Source of the DNA: Candidatus Poribacteria bacterium
Lineage (GTDB): Bacteria; Abyssobacteria; SURF-5
Assembly: GCA_016215705.1 (NCBI GenBank)
Contig: JACRIR010000108.1
Span: 1-24,718 of the forward strand
Reading direction: 5' to 3'
DNA length: 24,718 nt
Below are positions 16,986-24,382 of the stretch, in pieces. Positions within the stretch are counted from its first letter, which is position 1; the number at the start of each line of letters is the position of its first letter. A program made the position numbers and the translations under genes. The notes below the pieces were generated by a model. It was not told the origin of the DNA. It searched no databases and saw only the letters and a list, made by a program, of their open reading frames with translations.

Positions 16986-18152
16986 TTATATGGTAGGACC
17001 GCACCGTGTTATCGCAAACTCCACATGTCCGAGAACTTCTGAACGCGTCTTCCGGCCGCTTGCGGTTCGGAGAAGCACCCTCAAGAGCGCATCTCCCAGG
17101 CGCGGGAGAGGGGCGCCATGAGTGAAGAGAGGGCTGGCGTCAAAATCAATGTTCTCTTTCATGGTTGCCCACGTATGGGGGTTGCCGGTGATTTTCACAA
17201 CCGGTGCGATTGGCGAGCCTGTGGGCGTGCCTCTGCCGGTAGTAAATAAGACTATCGTGCAGCCACCTGCAAGCATCCCGCTTACGGATTCAACGTCCTG
17301 CCCCGGCGTATCCATAACAAAGAGACCTTTTCCCTCGATCTGACTCCCATAACTGAGAACGTCTTCAATAGCGGATGTTCCCGCCTTGTAAACACAACCG
17401 AGCGACTTCTCTTCTATCGTGCTGATGCCACCAGCCATGTTTCCAGGCCCCGGCTGAGCCCCCCGTATGTCGACTCCCATCGCAATCGCACCCTGTTCGA
17501 CGCTATACACGAAATCGAGAAGCTTGCGGGCAACCCCCTTCGAGCGGCATCGACGGGCCAGGATGTGCTCGGCCCCAATCATCTCCGTCGTCTCTGAAAG
17601 AACGACGCTTCCTCCCAATGACACGACCCTGTCGGCAACCCAGCCCACAACAGGATTGGCTGCGATTCCGGACGTGGCGTCGCTTCCTCCGCATTCAAGA
17701 CCGACCGTCAGCCGCGAAATGGGGAAGCGTTCGCGCCTGGCTCCTCGGATTTTTCCGGCCAGTGCGCGCGCAACCTGCACTCCTTTTCTCACGGCGGCGC
17801 TCGTTCCGCCCAGTTCTTGAATGACGATCGTTTCCACTGGCTTCTTGCAGAGGGATATGCTCTTTCTCAACGAGTCAACGGGAACTTCTTCACATCCAAG
17901 GCTTACGAGCAACACCGCGCCGGCATTGGGATTAGCTCCCATGCCGCCAAGCGTCCGCACAGTCTGCTCGAAATCGGCGCCGATTTGGCCGCAGCCCAGC
18001 GGATGTTCGAGAGCCACGGCCCCTCTGACTTCCTCAGCGATTCTCTCTGAGACGTGATTGGCGCACACTATCGTCGGCACAATCAGCACATGATTGCGAA
18101 CGCCCACTTTCCCATCAGGCCGGAGGAATCCTTTGAAACTCATGTCACTCAT
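16986..18152 (-). CDS. UxaA/GarD-family sugar-acid dehydratase, large subunit
   Basis: 388 aa matching the C-terminal catalytic part of altronate/galactarate dehydratases: the opening GFLRPDGKVGVRN (8-20), LGCGQIG, VSLGCEEVP, LECGGSDATSG, and GNMAGG further on. Altronate dehydratase converts altronate to 2-keto-3-deoxygluconate in hexuronate breakdown; relatives act on galactarate, sulfolactate or other hydroxy acids. In split forms a SAF-domain small subunit is encoded next door, as here at 18383-18787. A KDG-type kinase just upstream fits this pathway. Start options are the ATG at 18152 or 18143; a weak AGGAAG lies about 12 bp before the first. A 230-bp repeat island separates it from the small subunit. 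The exact substrate is not decided by sequence. Confidence 0.9.
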   Translation of the reverse strand: MSDMSFKGFLRPDGKVGVRNHVLIVPTIVCANHVSERIAEEVRGAVALEHPLGCGQIGADFEQTVRTLGGMGANPNAGAVLLVSLGCEEVPVDSLRKSISLCKKPVETIVIQELGGTSAAVRKGVQVARALAGKIRGARRERFPISRLTVGLECGGSDATSGIAANPVVGWVADRVVSLGGSVVLSETTEMIGAEHILARRCRSKGVARKLLDFVYSVEQGAIAMGVDIRGAQPGPGNMAGGISTIEEKSLGCVYKAGTSAIEDVLSYGSQIEGKGLFVMDTPGQDVESVSGMLAGGCTIVLFTTGRGTPTGSPIAPVVKITGNPHTWATMKENIDFDASPLFTHGAPLPRLGDALLRVLLRTASGRKTRSEVLGHVEFAITRCGPTI

Positions 18153-18174
18153 CTGCCGAGTTCACTTCCTCTTT

Positions 18175-18253
18175 GTCATTCCCGCAAAAGCAGAAATCCA
18201 TGTTCTTGTGGTCACGGCAAGCTAATCTGGATTCCCGTTTTCGCGGGAATGAC
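18175..18253. repeat. 79-bp inverted-repeat element of the ATTCCC-N8-GGGAAT type
   Basis: The left arm (18175-18200, starting GTCATTCCCGC) and right arm (18228-18253, ending GCGGGAATGAC) are complementary at 22 of 26 positions and flank about 27 bp. The right arm contains ATTCCC-N8-GGGAAT (18231-18250), the consensus shape of the neisserial dRS3 repeat. A second such 20-mer is at 23923-23942. The element lies 22 bp upstream of the uxaA-like start codon. Confidence 0.75.
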
Positions 18254-18322
18254 GTAGGGTATGTAGCTTCTTTGCGGTTCAACCATAAACCCCTAACCGA
18301 CTACCCCGCGCCTTGCGGCCCC

Positions 18323-18376
18323 CCTTCGCCTTTCGCCTTTCGCCTCTTTTCACCATGAACCATAAACCATAAACCC
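18323..18376. repeat. Heptad repeat words (CCTTTCG and ACCATAA types)
   Basis: Two adjacent short tandem arrays with 7-bp period: CTTCGCC/TTTCGCC units (18323-18347), then ACCATGA-ACCATAA-ACCATAA (18352-18372). The same pair in the same order, joined by CTCTTTTC, recurs at 22512-22573. They fill the gap between the two dehydratase subunit genes. No gene is present. Confidence 0.8.
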
Positions 18377-18382
18377 AGTTTC

Positions 18383-18787
18383 TCATGAGCGAAGCGAAGC
18401 AATCTCTCTTTCTTCCCTTTCGCCTTTCGCCTCTTTCTGACCTTGGACCTTGGACTTTGGACCTTGGACTCTTTTTCGGATATCCCCTCTGCCGCGCTCG
18501 CTCGCCAGATTATGCGTATGAACGTGCTCTCCCGCTCGAATCGGCCGGGTCGCGCGTCCTATCTTTTCGCCGTATTTTGTCACTTGTGAGCCCTTGCGCA
18601 TTTCCTCGAGCGCGAATTTGTGATAGATGGGTATTCGTTGCAGCAGCCGAACCATCTCGCCGGCGTCCGCAGTGACTGCAATCTGGCCCTTGCTCAACGG
18701 ACGCAACGCGACCGCGACGTTGTCGCCCGGGCACAGCTTGAGCGAATTGGGTCTCTGCCTAGCGTTGGATTTTCGAGTGTCCCGCAT
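18383..18787 (-). CDS. SAF-domain small subunit of the UxaA-type dehydratase, with repeat-derived tail
   Basis: 134 aa. Residues about 16-100 form the SAF domain found at the N-terminus of altronate dehydratase: GDNVAVALRPL, IPIYHKFALEEM, VTKYGEKIGRAT, AGEHVHTHNLAS and RGRGD. It should pair with the large subunit at 16986-18152. The ATG at 18787 follows GGAGG by 9 bp and overlaps the kinase gene by 29 bp. From residue 107 onward the sequence is not protein-like: KVQGPKSKVQG and KEAKGEREERE are translations of heptad repeats, and the final IASLRS comes from a further repeat word that supplies the stop. The tail therefore looks like coding sequence overwritten by a repeat island. The domain call is firm. 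Confidence 0.85.
   Translation of the reverse strand: MRDTRKSNARQRPNSLKLCPGDNVAVALRPLSKGQIAVTADAGEMVRLLQRIPIYHKFALEEMRKGSQVTKYGEKIGRATRPIRAGEHVHTHNLASERGRGDIRKRVQGPKSKVQGQKEAKGEREEREIASLRS
18415..18470. repeat. Heptad repeats inside the 3' end of the SAF gene
   Basis: CCTTTCG-type units (18416-18433) and GACCTTG/GACTTTG units (18439-18470), both with 7-bp period, are in frame with the SAF gene on the minus strand and encode its last residues. A further word (18383-18407) provides the TGA stop. Confidence 0.8.
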
Positions 18788-19718
18788 TGAGTGCGGCCTC
18801 CACTTCGGCCTTTGTAACCAGAGCGAGATCGCCCGGAATAGTGAATTTCAGGGCGGCTATTGCAGAGGCGAAGTTAATGGCGTACTCCGCACTCTGTGTC
18901 AGATAACCGAAAAGGAATCCTGCCGAAAATGCGTCGCCCGCGCCCACTCTATCAACCTCTGTCGTTGCGACGACAGCCGACCTCAATAGCTTTCCCTTAT
19001 GACAACAGATAGCCCCATCTTTTCCAAGAGTCACAATAACCGATGAACAGCCGAATCGTGAGGCAAGCGCCGTAACAATTTCTTCAGGAGCGCCTTTTGT
19101 TCCAAAAACATTTCTGGCGTCTTCAGAGCTGACAAAGAGGATATCTACCTCCGAACATATGGGCGAAAGGGCTCGCTCGGCCTGTCGATGGCTCCAAAGC
19201 TTCGTTCTGTGGTTCACATCAAAGGAAATCACCGAACGCTCTTTTCTGGCTCGCTTTATTATTTCGCTCACGAGACGGCGGCAATTCGGGCCCAGGGCCG
19301 CAGTGATTCCGGTCAGATGCGCTACACGTGCTCCTTTAAATAATGACCAGTTGATCTCGGACGAGTTGATTGTGTTTATGGCCGAGTTCTTTCTGTCATA
19401 GGTCACGCGATGGGGCCGCGGCCCTCTTCCGAACTCAATGAAATAGGTCGCGTTGCGGCCTTCATTCGTCCAGATTATCCCGGATGTGTCCACGCCGTGC
19501 GCCCGGATGGACGACGCTATTTTCCTTCCGAGTGGGTCGTTTACAAGCTTCGAGACCCAGCAGGTCTTCAAGCCGAGCCGCGAGACCGCAATGGCCGTAT
19601 TCGATTCGGTTCCGCCAATAGACACATCAAGAGAGGTCGCCTGCTCGATAGTCTGGTGGTCGGGAGGCGAGAGGCGTATCATCGTTTCCCCGAACGTTAC
19701 AACGTCAAAAGGCCCCAC
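18759..19718 (-). CDS. kdgK: PfkB-family sugar kinase, probably 2-keto-3-deoxygluconate kinase
   Basis: 319 aa with both PfkB signatures: GGTESNTAIAVSRLG near residue 35 and DRVGAGDAFSAGFLFG near the C-terminus, holding the catalytic Asp. FIEFGRGPRPHRVTYDRK followed by NSAIN resembles the substrate region of KDG kinases, where Arg and Tyr contact the keto-acid. It would phosphorylate 2-keto-3-deoxygluconate with ATP, the step after altronate dehydratase; the overlap with the SAF subunit gene supports this. The start is GTG at 19718, with GGAG 8 bp upstream. A repeat island reaches to within a few bases of this ribosome binding site. Other PfkB substrates remain possible. Confidence 0.85.
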   Translation of the reverse strand: MGPFDVVTFGETMIRLSPPDHQTIEQATSLDVSIGGTESNTAIAVSRLGLKTCWVSKLVNDPLGRKIASSIRAHGVDTSGIIWTNEGRNATYFIEFGRGPRPHRVTYDRKNSAINTINSSEINWSLFKGARVAHLTGITAALGPNCRRLVSEIIKRARKERSVISFDVNHRTKLWSHRQAERALSPICSEVDILFVSSEDARNVFGTKGAPEEIVTALASRFGCSSVIVTLGKDGAICCHKGKLLRSAVVATTEVDRVGAGDAFSAGFLFGYLTQSAEYAINFASAIAALKFTIPGDLALVTKAEVEAALNAGHSKIQR

Positions 19719-19731
19719 GACGTTTTCTCCT

Positions 19732-19985
19732 CTATACTACTCAATATCAGAATCACGAATTCTTGTCTTGATTTTCTTTTCTTTTTCTTTCCCCAAATCC
19801 GTGTTAATCCGTGTCAATCCGTGGTTAAGATGACTCTTTTTCTTTTATTCTTCTTCTTTTCCCCGTGACTCCCGCGCTGAGGCCCCGCGTTTCGCGGGGT
19901 CCCGCCCCCGGCGGGATGCTCTCCGTGGTTAAGACTGCGTCTTCTGTTTCTTCTTCTTTTGGTTGGTTGCGGCTTTGCCGCGCTG
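19732..19985. repeat. Repeat island between the kinase and dehydrogenase genes
   Basis: No gene. The segment is built of short imperfect words: a 70-bp block (19732-19803) also present at 21045-21111; three 10-bp units AATCCGTGTT-AATCCGTGTC-AATCCGTGGT (19797-19826); T/C runs; GC-rich hairpins (CCCCGCG-TTT-CGCGGGG, 19883-19899); and TTTCTTCTTCTTTTGGTTGG followed by TTGCGGC (19947-19973), which recurs three more times in the window. Confidence 0.8.
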
Positions 19986-20013
19986 TGCAGGTACACTGAT
20001 TAAGCTGCAAATT

Positions 20014-21024
20014 TCAGAACTCCACCAGCACTTTAAGTTCGGTGTTTGGCGAAAGCAGCCGCTCAAAGGCCTCCGGCAGTTCATCGATTGAAACGGTCTC
20101 GCTCACGAGACTGTCGGCCTTGAAAACACCCTTATGCATGAAATCGAGAATGTCGCCGAATTCTGCCCTTGTGAATCCGAGCGTGGTTTGCATCGAGACC
20201 TCTTTGATAATCCACAACACCGGCTGGACTGTTGCAGGCTCCAAACATACGCCTACCAGAACGACCTTGCCTGCGCGTCTGACGAGATTAAACGCCTCTT
20301 GCGTAGTATCCGGCACTCCGACGCACTCGAATACATAATCGACACCCACGTCGTTTGTGAGATCGCTCAACGTGTTGAGGACATTGTCCCCGGCATCGAG
20401 AACTACGTCTGCGCCGAATTCCTTTGCCGCCTGTGCCCGTCTTTCAACCCGCTCCGTCGCTACTACCAGCCTCGCGCCCGCAAGCCGCAGGTGCCGGATG
20501 ATGCACAATCCGATTGGGCCCGCTCCCATCACCAGCGCCGTGTCACCCACCTTGAAACCCGACATACGAACGGCGTGATAGGCGGTGGCGAACGGGTCCA
20601 TCACCGCCAAATCACGCAACGTGACGTTCTCGGGAACTTTGAGCAGCATCGAGGGGAAGACTCTCATGTATTCCGCATACCCGCCCGGCATGTCGCCGAT
20701 GCCGATCCCGCCCATCTCCCGGCAAAGATTCGTAAAACCTTTCATGCACCAGAAACATTTGCCGCAGTAGAGAGCCCCATAAAGGCCTGCCTTCTCACCA
20801 ATGCCCCATCCTTCCACTCCCTCACCAAGCTCCGCAACGACCCCGCTGCATTCATGTCCCATTATGGTGTCGGGCGGTAGCAAACCGGTTGAATACAGAT
20901 GCAGGTCGGAGCCACAAATGCCCGTATACTTCATCTTGAGAATAATCTCGCCCGGCCCCGCCTTTGGAGTCGGAATTTCTTCCACCACCATGCTTCTTCT
21001 GTCTCTTAGAATTGCCGCCTTCAT
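20014..21024 (-). CDS. Zinc-dependent alcohol/polyol dehydrogenase (MDR family)
   Basis: 336 aa. Catalytic zinc ligands Cys37 (GICGSD) and His57-Glu58, structural zinc Cys87, 90, 93 and 101, and Rossmann motif GAGPIG near 170. It is a paralogue in layout of the dehydrogenase at 4144-5139 and should oxidise an alcohol, polyol or sugar acid with NAD(P)+. Placed among a KDG-type kinase, a UxaA-type dehydratase and a ribokinase, it could catalyse the first oxidation of a sugar or sugar acid. The ATG follows GGGAG at 7 bp. Its upstream gap is a repeat island with (TTC)n runs, so any promoter lies in that island. Confidence 0.93.
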   Translation of the reverse strand: MKAAILRDRRSMVVEEIPTPKAGPGEIILKMKYTGICGSDLHLYSTGLLPPDTIMGHECSGVVAELGEGVEGWGIGEKAGLYGALYCGKCFWCMKGFTNLCREMGGIGIGDMPGGYAEYMRVFPSMLLKVPENVTLRDLAVMDPFATAYHAVRMSGFKVGDTALVMGAGPIGLCIIRHLRLAGARLVVATERVERRAQAAKEFGADVVLDAGDNVLNTLSDLTNDVGVDYVFECVGVPDTTQEAFNLVRRAGKVVLVGVCLEPATVQPVLWIIKEVSMQTTLGFTRAEFGDILDFMHKGVFKADSLVSETVSIDELPEAFERLLSPNTELKVLVEF

Positions 21025-21044
21025 TTGTCTTCTCCCAACACTCT

Positions 21045-21400
21045 CTTACTACTCACATTCGAAATCGCGAATTCCTGTCGTGATTTCCTTTTTGTCCTTC
21101 CCCAAATCCGCGTTCATCGGCGTTCATCGGCGGTTAAAGACGCCTCTTTTTGTTTCTTCTTCTTCTTCTTCTTCTTCTTCTTCTTCCTCCCAAATCCCGT
21201 TCATCGGCGTTCATCGGCGGTTAAAAACGCCTCTTTTCGTTTCTTCTTCTTCTTCTTCTTCTTCTTCCTCCCAAATCCGCGTTCATCGGCGTTCATCGGC
21301 GGTTAAGAATGCCTTTTGATGTTTTCTCTTCTTTTCCCCGAATCCGCGCAATCTGCGAAATCTGCGGATTCCCCATTTCTTCTTTTGTTTGGTTGCGGCT
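21045..21400. repeat. Repeat island with three tandem units and (TTC)n runs
   Basis: No gene. After a 67-bp block shared with 19732-19803, three tandem units start at CCCAAATCC, positions 21101, 21189 and 21270 (periods 88 and 81 bp). Each carries two CGTTCATCGG decamers and GGTTAAnAnnGCCT; the first two end in (TTC)11 (21154-21186) and (TTC)9 (21241-21267). Then come AATCCGCGC-AATCTGCGA-AATCTGCGG (21350-21377) and a fourth-type word TTTCTTCTTTTGTTTGGTTG (21376-21395). Confidence 0.88.
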
Positions 21401-21435
21401 ATACCACGTTGCTAAGTCAGATTCTCTCGTCCGCT

Positions 21436-22227
21436 TTATTCCAGTGGCCGTACCTGACCTATCAGCAAGTCATTCGACCCGTGTGTTACAAAGCCGCCGC
21501 GATACTCTTTCGGCTTTAGTGTGGATACGACTTCCATGATCTGGCTTCCTAGCGGACATTGTTCCCACTTCGGTTGAAAGAAACCGATCTCCGGTTCGCC
21601 GCTGTACGCGCTCTTGATCCTGGTCTTGGATGGTATAAGCATGGGCCGGCTGAGTTCGGAGTTGAGTCCATTGCCCGTCGGAATATACTTCCACGACATC
21701 CACGGATGTGAGTTCGTCATCTGTTCCATCATCTGGATGTTTTCTTGGCTGATTTCAGTGGCATTGTTTACGGATATTTCCGCCAGTCGGTGGCCGTTCT
21801 CCGACACGTGCGCTCGCCAAACGTTTTCCATGCGCGAAGGATCGGGCAAATCACCGTAAAGCTTGGGAACTCCGAGAAGCTCACGCCCAAGAAGAATCGG
21901 AATCGTATTGTTCTCCCACAAAACGAGCGCATAGTTTCCGACGATGCTGTCTTTGTGACCGTTGAAAACCGCAGGAAGATTAATCCCGAAGATGTTGTAG
22001 CCTCCGCCCGCGAGAAAGTCGACGCTCCCACATTTCGAATAGTAGACCACTACAATCGGTTCGTCGGCTATCTCGAACTGCTTCGGCAGCAGGTTGCTGA
22101 CCGCGTCCTTCTCCGTAAGATACAGCGCCGTAAGCGTCGTCACGTCCTCATATTTCGCAACGGCCTGCCCCTTGACCGGTCCGATACTAATCGGCATGAG
22201 ATAATAAGTGTTCTTTCTTAGTTCCAA
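21436..22227 (-). CDS. Acetoacetate decarboxylase-family protein
   Basis: 263 aa. LVLWENNTIPILLGRELLGV is followed by PK, matching the family core ExxGxPK; Lys122 corresponds to the Schiff-base lysine of acetoacetate decarboxylase. Family members decarboxylate acetoacetate or carry out related Schiff-base chemistry on keto-acids (decarboxylation, dehydration, aldol reactions). In a sugar-acid gene set a keto-acid substrate other than acetoacetate is plausible. The start is TTG at 22227, with AAGGGAG 8 bp upstream. No CoA transferase or other acetone-pathway gene is nearby. Family is firm; reaction is not. Confidence 0.88.
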   Translation of the reverse strand: MELRKNTYYLMPISIGPVKGQAVAKYEDVTTLTALYLTEKDAVSNLLPKQFEIADEPIVVVYYSKCGSVDFLAGGGYNIFGINLPAVFNGHKDSIVGNYALVLWENNTIPILLGRELLGVPKLYGDLPDPSRMENVWRAHVSENGHRLAEISVNNATEISQENIQMMEQMTNSHPWMSWKYIPTGNGLNSELSRPMLIPSKTRIKSAYSGEPEIGFFQPKWEQCPLGSQIMEVVSTLKPKEYRGGFVTHGSNDLLIGQVRPLE

Positions 22228-22333
22228 TGCTTACGCTCCCTTCATGCGCCAGTTGCAATCATGCTGAGCGCTTTGTTGTCGTTCCGACCACCTGACCACG
22301 CCCGCGACGTGGTTAATTGTCAAAAAAACCCAC

Positions 22334-22447
22334 TTAATTCGGAAACACCATGCCACATGGTGTCCCCGAATCAAGAGAAACGGTGAGCCTTCGACCGCGA
22401 TGAATGGCGTATGCAGCACACCATGCTGCATGGTGTCCTCGAATTAA
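22334..22447. repeat. REP-like palindromes, copies 2 and 3 in tandem
   Basis: Copy 2 (22334-22374) starts TTAATTCGGAAACACC and has an imperfect complementary right arm; it has the same 41-bp length as copy 1 at 3991-4031. Copy 3 keeps the core CACCATG-CTG-CATGGTG (22419-22435) and right arm but has lost the left TTAATT arm. Both are followed by AAGAGAAAC, so the pair arose by local duplication of about 73 bp. Confidence 0.8.
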
Positions 22448-22484
22448 GAGAAACAGTCGTGGGTCTCCTAGAAGCTCTTCACAC

Positions 22485-22606
22485 TGTCATTCTGAGGGGA
22501 GCGAAGAATCTCCCTTTCGCCCTTTGGCCTTTCGCCTCTTTTCACCATAAACCATGAACCATGAACCATAAACTCCGCACGCTTCGCGCGGCCCCTTTCG
22601 CCCCTC
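22485..22606. repeat. Repeat words between ribokinase and the ADC-family gene
   Basis: No gene. GTCATTCTGAGGGGAGCGAA followed by GAATCTC (22486-22512) is a dispersed-type word related to the one at 18383-18407. CCTTTCG-like heptads (22512-22540) and ACCATAA/ACCATGA heptads (22544-22573) repeat the arrangement at 18323-18376. The ribokinase stop follows immediately. Confidence 0.75.
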
Positions 22607-23578
22607 TTATGTATGTGCCATCTCTCGAAAACCCGCCACCAAATCAGGCGCGCGATCAACCAGGAACTCATCCACCTCTTCGCGACTCGGTATAGAGGTC
22701 TGCGCTCCCTTCTTTGTAACAACGAGCGCGGCCACAGCGGAAGCAAACCTCGCGAGACTTTTCAGATTGGCAAAGAAACCACGTCCCGCTGCCAGCGCGC
22801 CGACATAAGCGTCACCCGCCGCCGTTGTATCTTCAACTCTGACCGGAAACGCGGGTATGCGCATTACGTTGCCTGAGTCCGCGATAACGCTGCCTTTCTC
22901 TCCGAGAGTGATGATGACGGTTCGCGCGCCCTTGGCTGCGAGGATGTGTATCGCGCTTTCCTCAAAATCGGCGGCATCGTGTTTCACGCCCGTAAGGGCT
23001 TCCGCCTCGGTTTCATTCGGAACGAGGATGTCAACCTGCTTTAGCATGGAATCGGCCGGGCCGCCGGTCATCGCCGGCGCGGGATTAAGGATTACTGGAA
23101 CCTTGTGTCTGACAGCGAGGCTCATGGCGCGGCTCAGCGTCTCCGGAGGCATTTCAAATTGCGTCACGAGAACCGATGCTCTCGCGATTACTTCTTCGGC
23201 GGCATCGATATCCGACGGTTCAACTTTGTGGTTTGCTCCCGGCGCGACGACTATTTGGTTTTGTCCCCCGGAGTCAACGATAATCATTGCGGTTCCGCTC
23301 GGGCATCCATTGACCACTCTGACATGACTCGTATCTATTTCCTCGCCGCTCATGTTGGCGATCATCTCGCGCCCGAAAGAGTCGTCGCCGACACAACCCA
23401 CAAAGCATACAGGCGCTCCGAGACGGGCCGCCGTCACCGCCTGGTTTGCGCCCTTTCCTCCGAAACTGGTATAAAAACTCTCACCCGTAACGGTCTCGCC
23501 GGGCCGTGGAAAACGACTGGTCTTTATGACCATATCCACGTTGGCGGCTCCGACGACTACAACCGGCTTCTGGCGCAT
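22607..23578 (-). CDS. rbsK: Ribokinase (PfkB family)
   Basis: 323 aa. ANVDMVIKTSRFPRPGET, FGGKGANQAVTAARLG (39-54) and DTTAAGDAYVGAL (250-262) are ribokinase hallmarks; the anion-hole motif is AAGD rather than GAGD, a common variation, with catalytic Asp256. LNPAPA and PNETEAEALTG are also typical. It phosphorylates D-ribose (or a similar pentose) with ATP in the cytosol. GGAG 8 bp before the ATG supports the start. No ribose transporter or RbsD is in the window. The gene ends directly at a repeat island, and upstream there are 800 bp of repeats with one promoter-like site. Confidence 0.9.
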   Translation of the reverse strand: MRQKPVVVVGAANVDMVIKTSRFPRPGETVTGESFYTSFGGKGANQAVTAARLGAPVCFVGCVGDDSFGREMIANMSGEEIDTSHVRVVNGCPSGTAMIIVDSGGQNQIVVAPGANHKVEPSDIDAAEEVIARASVLVTQFEMPPETLSRAMSLAVRHKVPVILNPAPAMTGGPADSMLKQVDILVPNETEAEALTGVKHDAADFEESAIHILAAKGARTVIITLGEKGSVIADSGNVMRIPAFPVRVEDTTAAGDAYVGALAAGRGFFANLKSLARFASAVAALVVTKKGAQTSIPSREEVDEFLVDRAPDLVAGFREMAHT

Positions 23579-23619
23579 ATCAGTTTCTCCGGATCACTGG
23601 TGCCAAAAAAGGAATCCGA

Positions 23620-24206
23620 ATCGCAGGGGTCGCGAAGGGGCGCAGAGGAAAGACCAATAAAGCAATACTCTCAAAGTCCTCGGCGTCTTTTTCTTCTTCT
23701 TATTAACCCGCGTTAATTCTTGTCAATCCGCGGTTGAGATCGCCTCTTCTCTTTCTTTCCCCAAATCTATGGCCATCCTTGGTCCATCTGTGGCTAAGAA
23801 TGTCTCTTCTTTTTCTTCTTCTTTTCCCCAAATCCGTGCAATCCGTACTATCCATTGCATTTTCTTTAATTCCTGTCGTGATTTTACAGAATATATTTGT
23901 GTAACTCCTTGTTCATGAATGGATTCCCGCCTTCGCGGGAATGATAAAAAGGGATTATTCATTCGTGTAATTCGTCTCGCGCCTTGCGCGATTCGTGACA
24001 TTCGTGATCCCAGAGTTTCTTCTTCTTTTTGGTTGGTTGCGGCTTCGCTGCGCCGTGTTCATCTGTGGCTAAGAATGTCTCTTCTTCTTCTTCTTCTTTT
24101 CCCCAAATCCATGCAATCCGTAGGCTGAGCCCCGCGCGAAGTCCCGCGCTTCGCGGGATTCCCAATGTTTCTTCTTTTGTTTGGTTGTGGATTCGCCGTG
24201 AAAACG
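23620..24206. repeat. Large repeat island upstream of ribokinase
   Basis: No gene. The segment strings together words seen elsewhere: CGCAGAGG-like units (23630-23652), AATCCGCGGTT and GGCTAAGAATG words, TTCCCCAAATCC (three times), AATTCCTGTCGTGATTTT (23867-23884, also at 21070-21087), ATTCCC-N8-GGGAAT, ATTCGTG units (23960-24008), and two copies of the TTCTTCTT-GGTTGG-TTGCGGC word (24016-24053 and 24168-24200). A GC hairpin CCCGCG-CTT-CGCGGG (24143-24157) resembles that at 19883-19899. Confidence 0.8.
23923..23942. repeat. dRS3-like 20-bp palindrome
   Basis: ATTCCC, GCCTTCGC, GGGAAT: the ATTCCC-N8-GGGAAT pattern, with complementary inner bases giving a GCGGGAAT hairpin. Second copy of the right arm at 18231-18250; here the partner arm is absent. 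Confidence 0.8.
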
Positions 24207-24235
24207 ATTATACAGAAAAGTCCGCTGAGAAACAA
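24207..24235 (-). promoter_or_regulatory. Possible sigma-70 promoter at the island edge
   Basis: On the minus strand TTGTTT (24230-24235) and TATAAT (24207-24212) are 17 bp apart. If real, it would drive ribokinase across about 620 bp of repeat island. The -35 match is only moderate. Confidence 0.4.
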
Positions 24236-24382
24236 TATGCGGAAGAAGAAAAAACTTTGGAAAACGAATCTGCGATCACGAATGGCACAAACAAAAAATG
24301 CGAATGACACGAATGAAGAAAAGACATCTCTCTGCAGATTGCAGTGCGCGGCATAGCTGTAACAAAAGAAGCTATGAGTATT

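Follow-up and report, generated by a model that had tools for sequence, protein, structure and literature searches.

Gene-separating islands in a Candidatus Poribacteria contig hold at least three kinds of dispersed short-repeat word

The islands that separate a run of minus-strand sugar-acid genes in Candidatus Poribacteria bacterium hold at least three structural kinds of repeat word, here called A, B and C. We read these islands, with a probability of about one half, as intergenic accretions of several dispersed short-repeat families, hairpin elements together with slippage heptamers. The window analysed is a whole contig of 24,718 nucleotides from a 5.47-Mb assembly of 270 contigs. Five word-bearing gaps separate its minus-strand genes between positions 16986 and 24718 (Table 1), with approximate limits because genes were called with a simple codon model. 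The islands have 161 same-strand 9-mers in common, compared with a mean of 16.6 and a maximum of 34 in dinucleotide shuffles, and 65 tandem recurrences at lags of 7–10, compared with 2.8; coding DNA of equal length gave 8 shared 9-mers and 3 tandem recurrences. The vocabulary common to five gaps that the first-pass annotation had described is thus borne out, words and coordinates alike, as is the TTCTTCTT..TTGGTTG word with its four copies (19948, 21377, 24017 and 24169), the last of them diverged (TTGTGGA). The same annotation had placed the CCTTTCG/GACCTTG arrays at 18416–18469 between genes; the count of five gaps stands, but these arrays lie inside a predicted ORF. This SAF-domain ORF (18383–18787, minus strand) extends into the arrays, so that repeat words encode its end (VQGPKSKVQGQKEAKGE...; translated tail VQGPKSKVQG), and its Pfam match stops at residue 94 of 134. 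Elsewhere in the window, CATGGTGTCC palindromes followed by CCGAATYAAG occupy 22340–22450. No Rfam family reached its cut-off anywhere in the islands.

Table 1. Repeat-word features in the five islands of the window.
Feature	Position	Strand	Remarks
Island 1	18153–18382		between SAF-domain ORF and altronate/galactarate dehydratase C-terminal gene (gene calls, Pfam); 14-mers in common with 34 other gaps
REPIN-type inverted pair GTCATTCCCGC..GCGGGAATGAC	18175–18253		opposite-strand ATTCCCGC pair, 65 bp apart; predicted fold of 18176–18252, −33.3 kcal/mol
ATTCCC(N8)GGGAAT	18231–18250
Heptamer arrays CCTTTCG and ACCATAA/ACCATGA	18325–18375	+
Heptamer arrays CCTTTCG and GACCTTG	18416–18469	+	in 3' part of minus-strand ORF 18383–18787
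Island 2	19719–20013		between PfkB and ADH genes (gene calls, Pfam, 14-mer sharing)
Solo three-word arm ACCACGGAT-TGA-CACGGAT-TAA-CACGGAT	19797–19825	−	followed by TTGGGGAA and purine tract
TTCTTCTTCTTTTGGTTGGTTGCGGC word	19948–19973	+
Island 3	21025–21435		holds 81–82-bp tandem 21101–21314, 2.5 copies of arm + (TTC)n
Three-word arm ACCGCCGAT-GAA-CGCCGAT-GAA-CGCGGAT	21106–21134	−
(TTC)11	21154–21186	+	second TTC run 21241–21267
Two-word version of arm 21106–21134	21203–21221	−
Three-word arm	21275–21303	−	sequence identical to 21106–21134
9-base-period array AATCTGCGA	21341–21366	+
TTCTTCTTTTGTTTGGTTGCGGC word	21377–21399	+
Island 4	22228–22606		GTCATTC(TGAG) word at 22486; CCTTTCG array 22512–22541; ACCATAA array 22544–22573; 14-mers in common with 34 other gaps
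Island 5	23579–24382		degenerate arm near 23775; ATTCCC-N8-GGGAAT 23923–23942; ATTCGTG words 23961–24007; 14-mers in common with 32 other gaps
TTC/TTGGTTG words of island 5	24017–24043 and 24169–24191

Kind A consists of arms of three 7-base words with 2–3 free bases between them and an RCC/GGY end; on the minus strand its 10-base words read RCC-word-spacer-word-spacer-word. Kind B consists of REPIN-type inverted palindrome pairs, the dRS3 pattern ATTCCC-N8-GGGAAT among them. Its palindromes GTCATTCTGAG and ATTCCCGC occur in inverted pairs, one of which lies in island 1; pairs of GTCATTCTGAG were found 9 times in the '+-' arrangement and never in the '-+' arrangement, and the printed units measure 84–107 bp with predicted folds of −41.8 to −51.3 kcal/mol. 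Kind C comprises heptamer arrays without gaps, and the recurrence of 7-mers in intergenic DNA peaks at lags of 7, 14, 21, 28 and 35. With at least three structural classes found, the earlier suggestion that the islands are not one mobile element holds. Tandem units do differ by one or two bases, as had been noted; in the 10-base words this is not random drift, because the 7-base word is kept, the 2–3-base spacers are free and the tail of the end unit is fixed, a grammar that recurs in many phyla.

The words recur throughout the genome. Our main counts come from 40 stretches picked by contig number (511 kb), with chance levels taken from a third-order Markov model; a further 18 stretches outside the window, from contigs bearing one of the words, form a biased sample. 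Within the 511 kb, CCTTTCGCC was found 42 times between genes and 11 times in coding DNA (1.4 expected), ACCATAAACC 46 times and once (0.2), TTGGTTGCGGC 11 times and once (0.2) and GTCATTCTGAG 34 times and once (0); the palindromic ATTCCC(N8)GGGAAT pattern, both strands counted, was found 8 times between genes and never in coding DNA, and GACCTTG was rare beyond the window. The words thus lie mainly between genes, far above expectation, and the first-pass annotation's caveat that they might be absent elsewhere is excluded. The islands are unlikely to be an assembly artefact, given that many contigs, and other genomes too, carry the words. A 14-mer is shared with another gap by 298 of 560 gaps. 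Gaps less than 6 kb apart share 14-mers at 1.87%, compared with 1.33% for gaps on different contigs, and because neighbours share barely more than other contigs do, we regard the spread as dispersal and not as local copying. The 10-mer present in the largest number of sample gaps (53), GTGTCCCCGA, exceeds every word listed in the first pass, and more repeat-like words absent from that list (AAAGTGAGCTAAAGTGCC) occur at L038 1665–2053.

The words had also been described as lying nearly always on one strand relative to the genes. Outside the window, whole islands divide 49:39 in this respect, largely as random orientation would give, and of the twelve single words tested, just ACCATAAACC showed a strand preference (18:5 gaps, p=0.01); an orientation rule relative to genes is therefore rejected as general. 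Words within one gap tend toward a common strand (158:51 word pairs). Agreement between neighbouring islands (39:24) is suggestive at most.

Kind A extends far beyond this genome. Its exact 20-base form ATCCGTGTNAATCCGTGGTTA occurs in at least 116 stretches of the genome collection, in about a dozen phyla, where chance would give about 0.5 matches (2 x 257 Gb / 4^20). By record title, the lineages include Phycisphaerales, Verrucomicrobia, Desantisbacteria, WOR-3, Nitrospirae, Bacteroidota, Roseiflexus, Parcubacteria, Clostridiales, Terriglobia, Elusimicrobia, Latescibacterota and others. Nearly all listed matches are metagenome-assembled; arms also occur in records of isolates (Bacteroides finegoldii, Gemmatirosa and Pseudoalteromonas) and in plasmid records of named strains, and because of the latter, misbinning does not account for everything. 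Among 386 genomes, a related pattern was found in 12 and a CTCTGTG form in 30, compared with 0 and 1 in the reversed control. Arm periods are 10 or 9. Real and reversed DNA gave 153 and 1 arms at cross-phylum loci, 49 and 0 in viral contigs and 18 and 2 in this genome's sample, the first two sets having been fetched by an arm sequence, so that their counts, the reversed control aside, are enriched by choice. For ACCATAAACCATAAACC, viral contigs gave at least 120 stretches, a weak signal given 34 for the word reversed. Other words of the window had few or no matches in the cross-phylum loci beyond the fetched one. The lag-7 comparison of arm-positive with arm-negative genomes is dominated by one genome, the strict mask having left too little non-coding DNA.

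Elsewhere, two arms often form an inverted pair, as in a hairpin. At loci not chosen for pairs, neighbouring arms up to 200 bp apart were facing in 12 cases, back to back in none and on the same strand in 21; beyond 200 bp there was no bias (7:7). The two arms of a pair agree in their words more than shuffled partners do (0.957 vs 0.848). In the genus of G310, all 34 close pairs are facing. This count is based on 79 arms mainly from paired genomes; unpaired arms of further species, such as the overlapping runs in G389 and G423, were set aside, and several G387 and G412 pairs with the same spacers are likely to be orthologues that do not count independently. Spacers there are variable and the word mismatch rate is 1.1%, a value biased low by a search that allowed up to 2 mismatches. 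The spacers of facing arms in this genus agree in 25 of 132 comparisons, against 54.1 ± 5.4 after shuffling (33 of the 34 pairs), and at the other loci examined their agreement is at or slightly above the null; that facing spacers avoid matching in this genus is a lead. The first spacer of the left arm tends there to match the second spacer of the right arm (64 vs 48.9 ± 5.0), as though the arms could fold with a shift. Among facing pairs from pair-selected loci, three of four in L260 (G310) have related interiors by eye, and most others differ. Pairs in the Pseudoalteromonas stretch comprise 2 facing, 3 back to back and 1 on the same strand; a Pseudoalteromonas megaplasmid (L279 24216–24800) bears two arm elements, nearly identical and separated by about 450 bp, and in each of them an arm contains a small GC hairpin.

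Kind A arms in this genome almost always stand alone, and TTTGGG or a GAA-rich tract often comes next. Under a strict pattern, six close arm pairs are on the same strand and none is facing; a looser pattern gives 2 facing, and a facing pair lies at L026 14403/14525. In G001 and G002, two other genera of this organism's family, the genes around PfkB homologues are spaced differently, and no cluster there was seen to match. In G002 (L230, L231 and L242–L249), GTCATTGCGA and CGAAGCAATC replace the GTCATTCTGA and GAAGAATCTC of this genome, changes that would preserve the inverted match.

Orthologous gaps differ at two loci, both chosen for bearing an element. The gap that holds an element in G310 measures 32 bp in G394 and 16 bp in G423 between aligned flanks, with no element; it holds a different arm hairpin in G421 and other hairpins in G395 and G413. 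The gap of the G354 element holds a GC-rich hairpin in G386. Upstream, the remaining congeneric species carry different genes or DNA that could not be aligned, and they are uninformative. We interpret the differences at the two loci as gain, loss or replacement; the alignment of filled and empty gaps is too poor for target duplications or the direction of change to be read. Y1_Tnp proteins are encoded in this genome and its family. Across 39 genomes of the G310 genus comparison, Y1_Tnp counts did not correlate with arm counts (rho 0.05, p 0.77), and Y1 transposases are not supported as the driver of kind A; a search covering the Y1_Tnp family found no transposase for it. No REP words were seen in the stretches around this genome's three Y1_Tnp genes, two of which lie at contig ends.

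Among known systems, REPINs come closest to kind B. REPINs are REP doublets that form hairpins, with singlets and clusters by mutual insertion also described (PMC3116915), and the words of the window are likewise dispersed, extragenic and arranged as inverted pairs with a spacer, with singlets among them. Kind B shows the inverted palindrome pair with a short spacer, whereas kind A units are not palindromic, being direct 7-base words with spacers, and their inverted doublets predominate in the genus of G310, where all 34 close pairs are facing, but not in this genome. Kind A also differs from REPINs in that no linked RAYT was seen and its exact words are common to many phyla. Neisserial intergenic mosaic elements carry dRS3, ATTCCC(N8)GGGAAT (PMC3898611); the window has two copies of this 20-base pattern, in intergenic arrays that are likewise mosaic, although other words dominate the islands and the likeness lies in the dRS3 pattern. 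Intergenic heptamer repeats are known with the units TAACTGA (PMC4679880) and GGGAATC and GGGGA(C/T)T (PMC4692102). Like these and the cyanobacterial STRR, to which it is likened by unit structure, kind C consists of gapless 7-base intergenic tandem units; its unit sequences are unlike those three heptamers, and the window mixes several unit types with hairpin words in one gap. MITEs are also short non-coding elements with inverted ends; however, by eye the loops are unlike in most printed copies, no source transposon was found, and a target duplication was not found in gaps too diverged to align. No description of kind A was found by topic or by long arm strings, whose sole match was unrelated, in literature of partial coverage.

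In our preferred reading, kinds A and B would be small hairpin-forming elements, or derivatives of them, that lodge in intergenic DNA and inside each other, with the hairpin as the unit that moves, probably in trans, and with any transposase putative. In this genome, kind A would survive mostly as single arms, derived from hairpins and joined to a purine tract, whereas kind C heptamers and (TTC)n would most likely grow by replication slippage. Against this stand the near absence of paired arms in this genome and the spacers that differ between copies; because of the latter, plain copying of a unit is disfavoured for kind A. Tentatively, kind A may be an undescribed cross-phylum class of miniature hairpins with three-word arms and free spacers, whose machinery would read the words and not the spacers.

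It is also conceivable, though doubtful, that the arms of kind A serve a conserved DNA-binding protein as arrays of binding sites, with words under selection spaced about one helical turn apart and the spacers free. Conserved words, variable spacers, periods of 9–10 and arms common to many phyla would suit such arrays; however, the arms are not conserved in either of the two orthologous gaps compared, their position and strand relative to genes are not constant, and the word varies between and within genomes. Whatever their origin, the hairpins might be retained because they form the 3' ends of transcripts or stabilise RNA, but this seems improbable. The filling of one orthologous slot by different hairpins is consistent with such a role, as are the arms of Bacteroides finegoldii, which occur at 0.71 per kb in convergent gaps, 0.31 in codirectional gaps and not at all in divergent gaps (14 arms), but the raw densities in this genome are 0.27, 0.13 and 0.11, respectively (30 arms), and divergent gaps commonly hold TTC words. 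We consider local copy-and-diverge within each gap by slippage and short duplications, as the first pass had proposed, quite unlikely for the islands and applicable at most to the heptamer and (TTC)n arrays, not to the 10-base words, since, despite the 81–82-bp tandem in island 3 and the intergenic recurrence peaks at lags of 7, 14 and 21, sharing between contigs about equals sharing between neighbours and unrelated phyla carry the same words.

For an exact 20-base non-coding sequence to be present in about a dozen phyla, some carrier, shared enzyme or shared binding protein is required, and we know of none for this sequence. The arm grammar of kind A is explicit enough for a search of any genome, and filled and empty gaps can be compared directly in species-rich genera such as that around G310.
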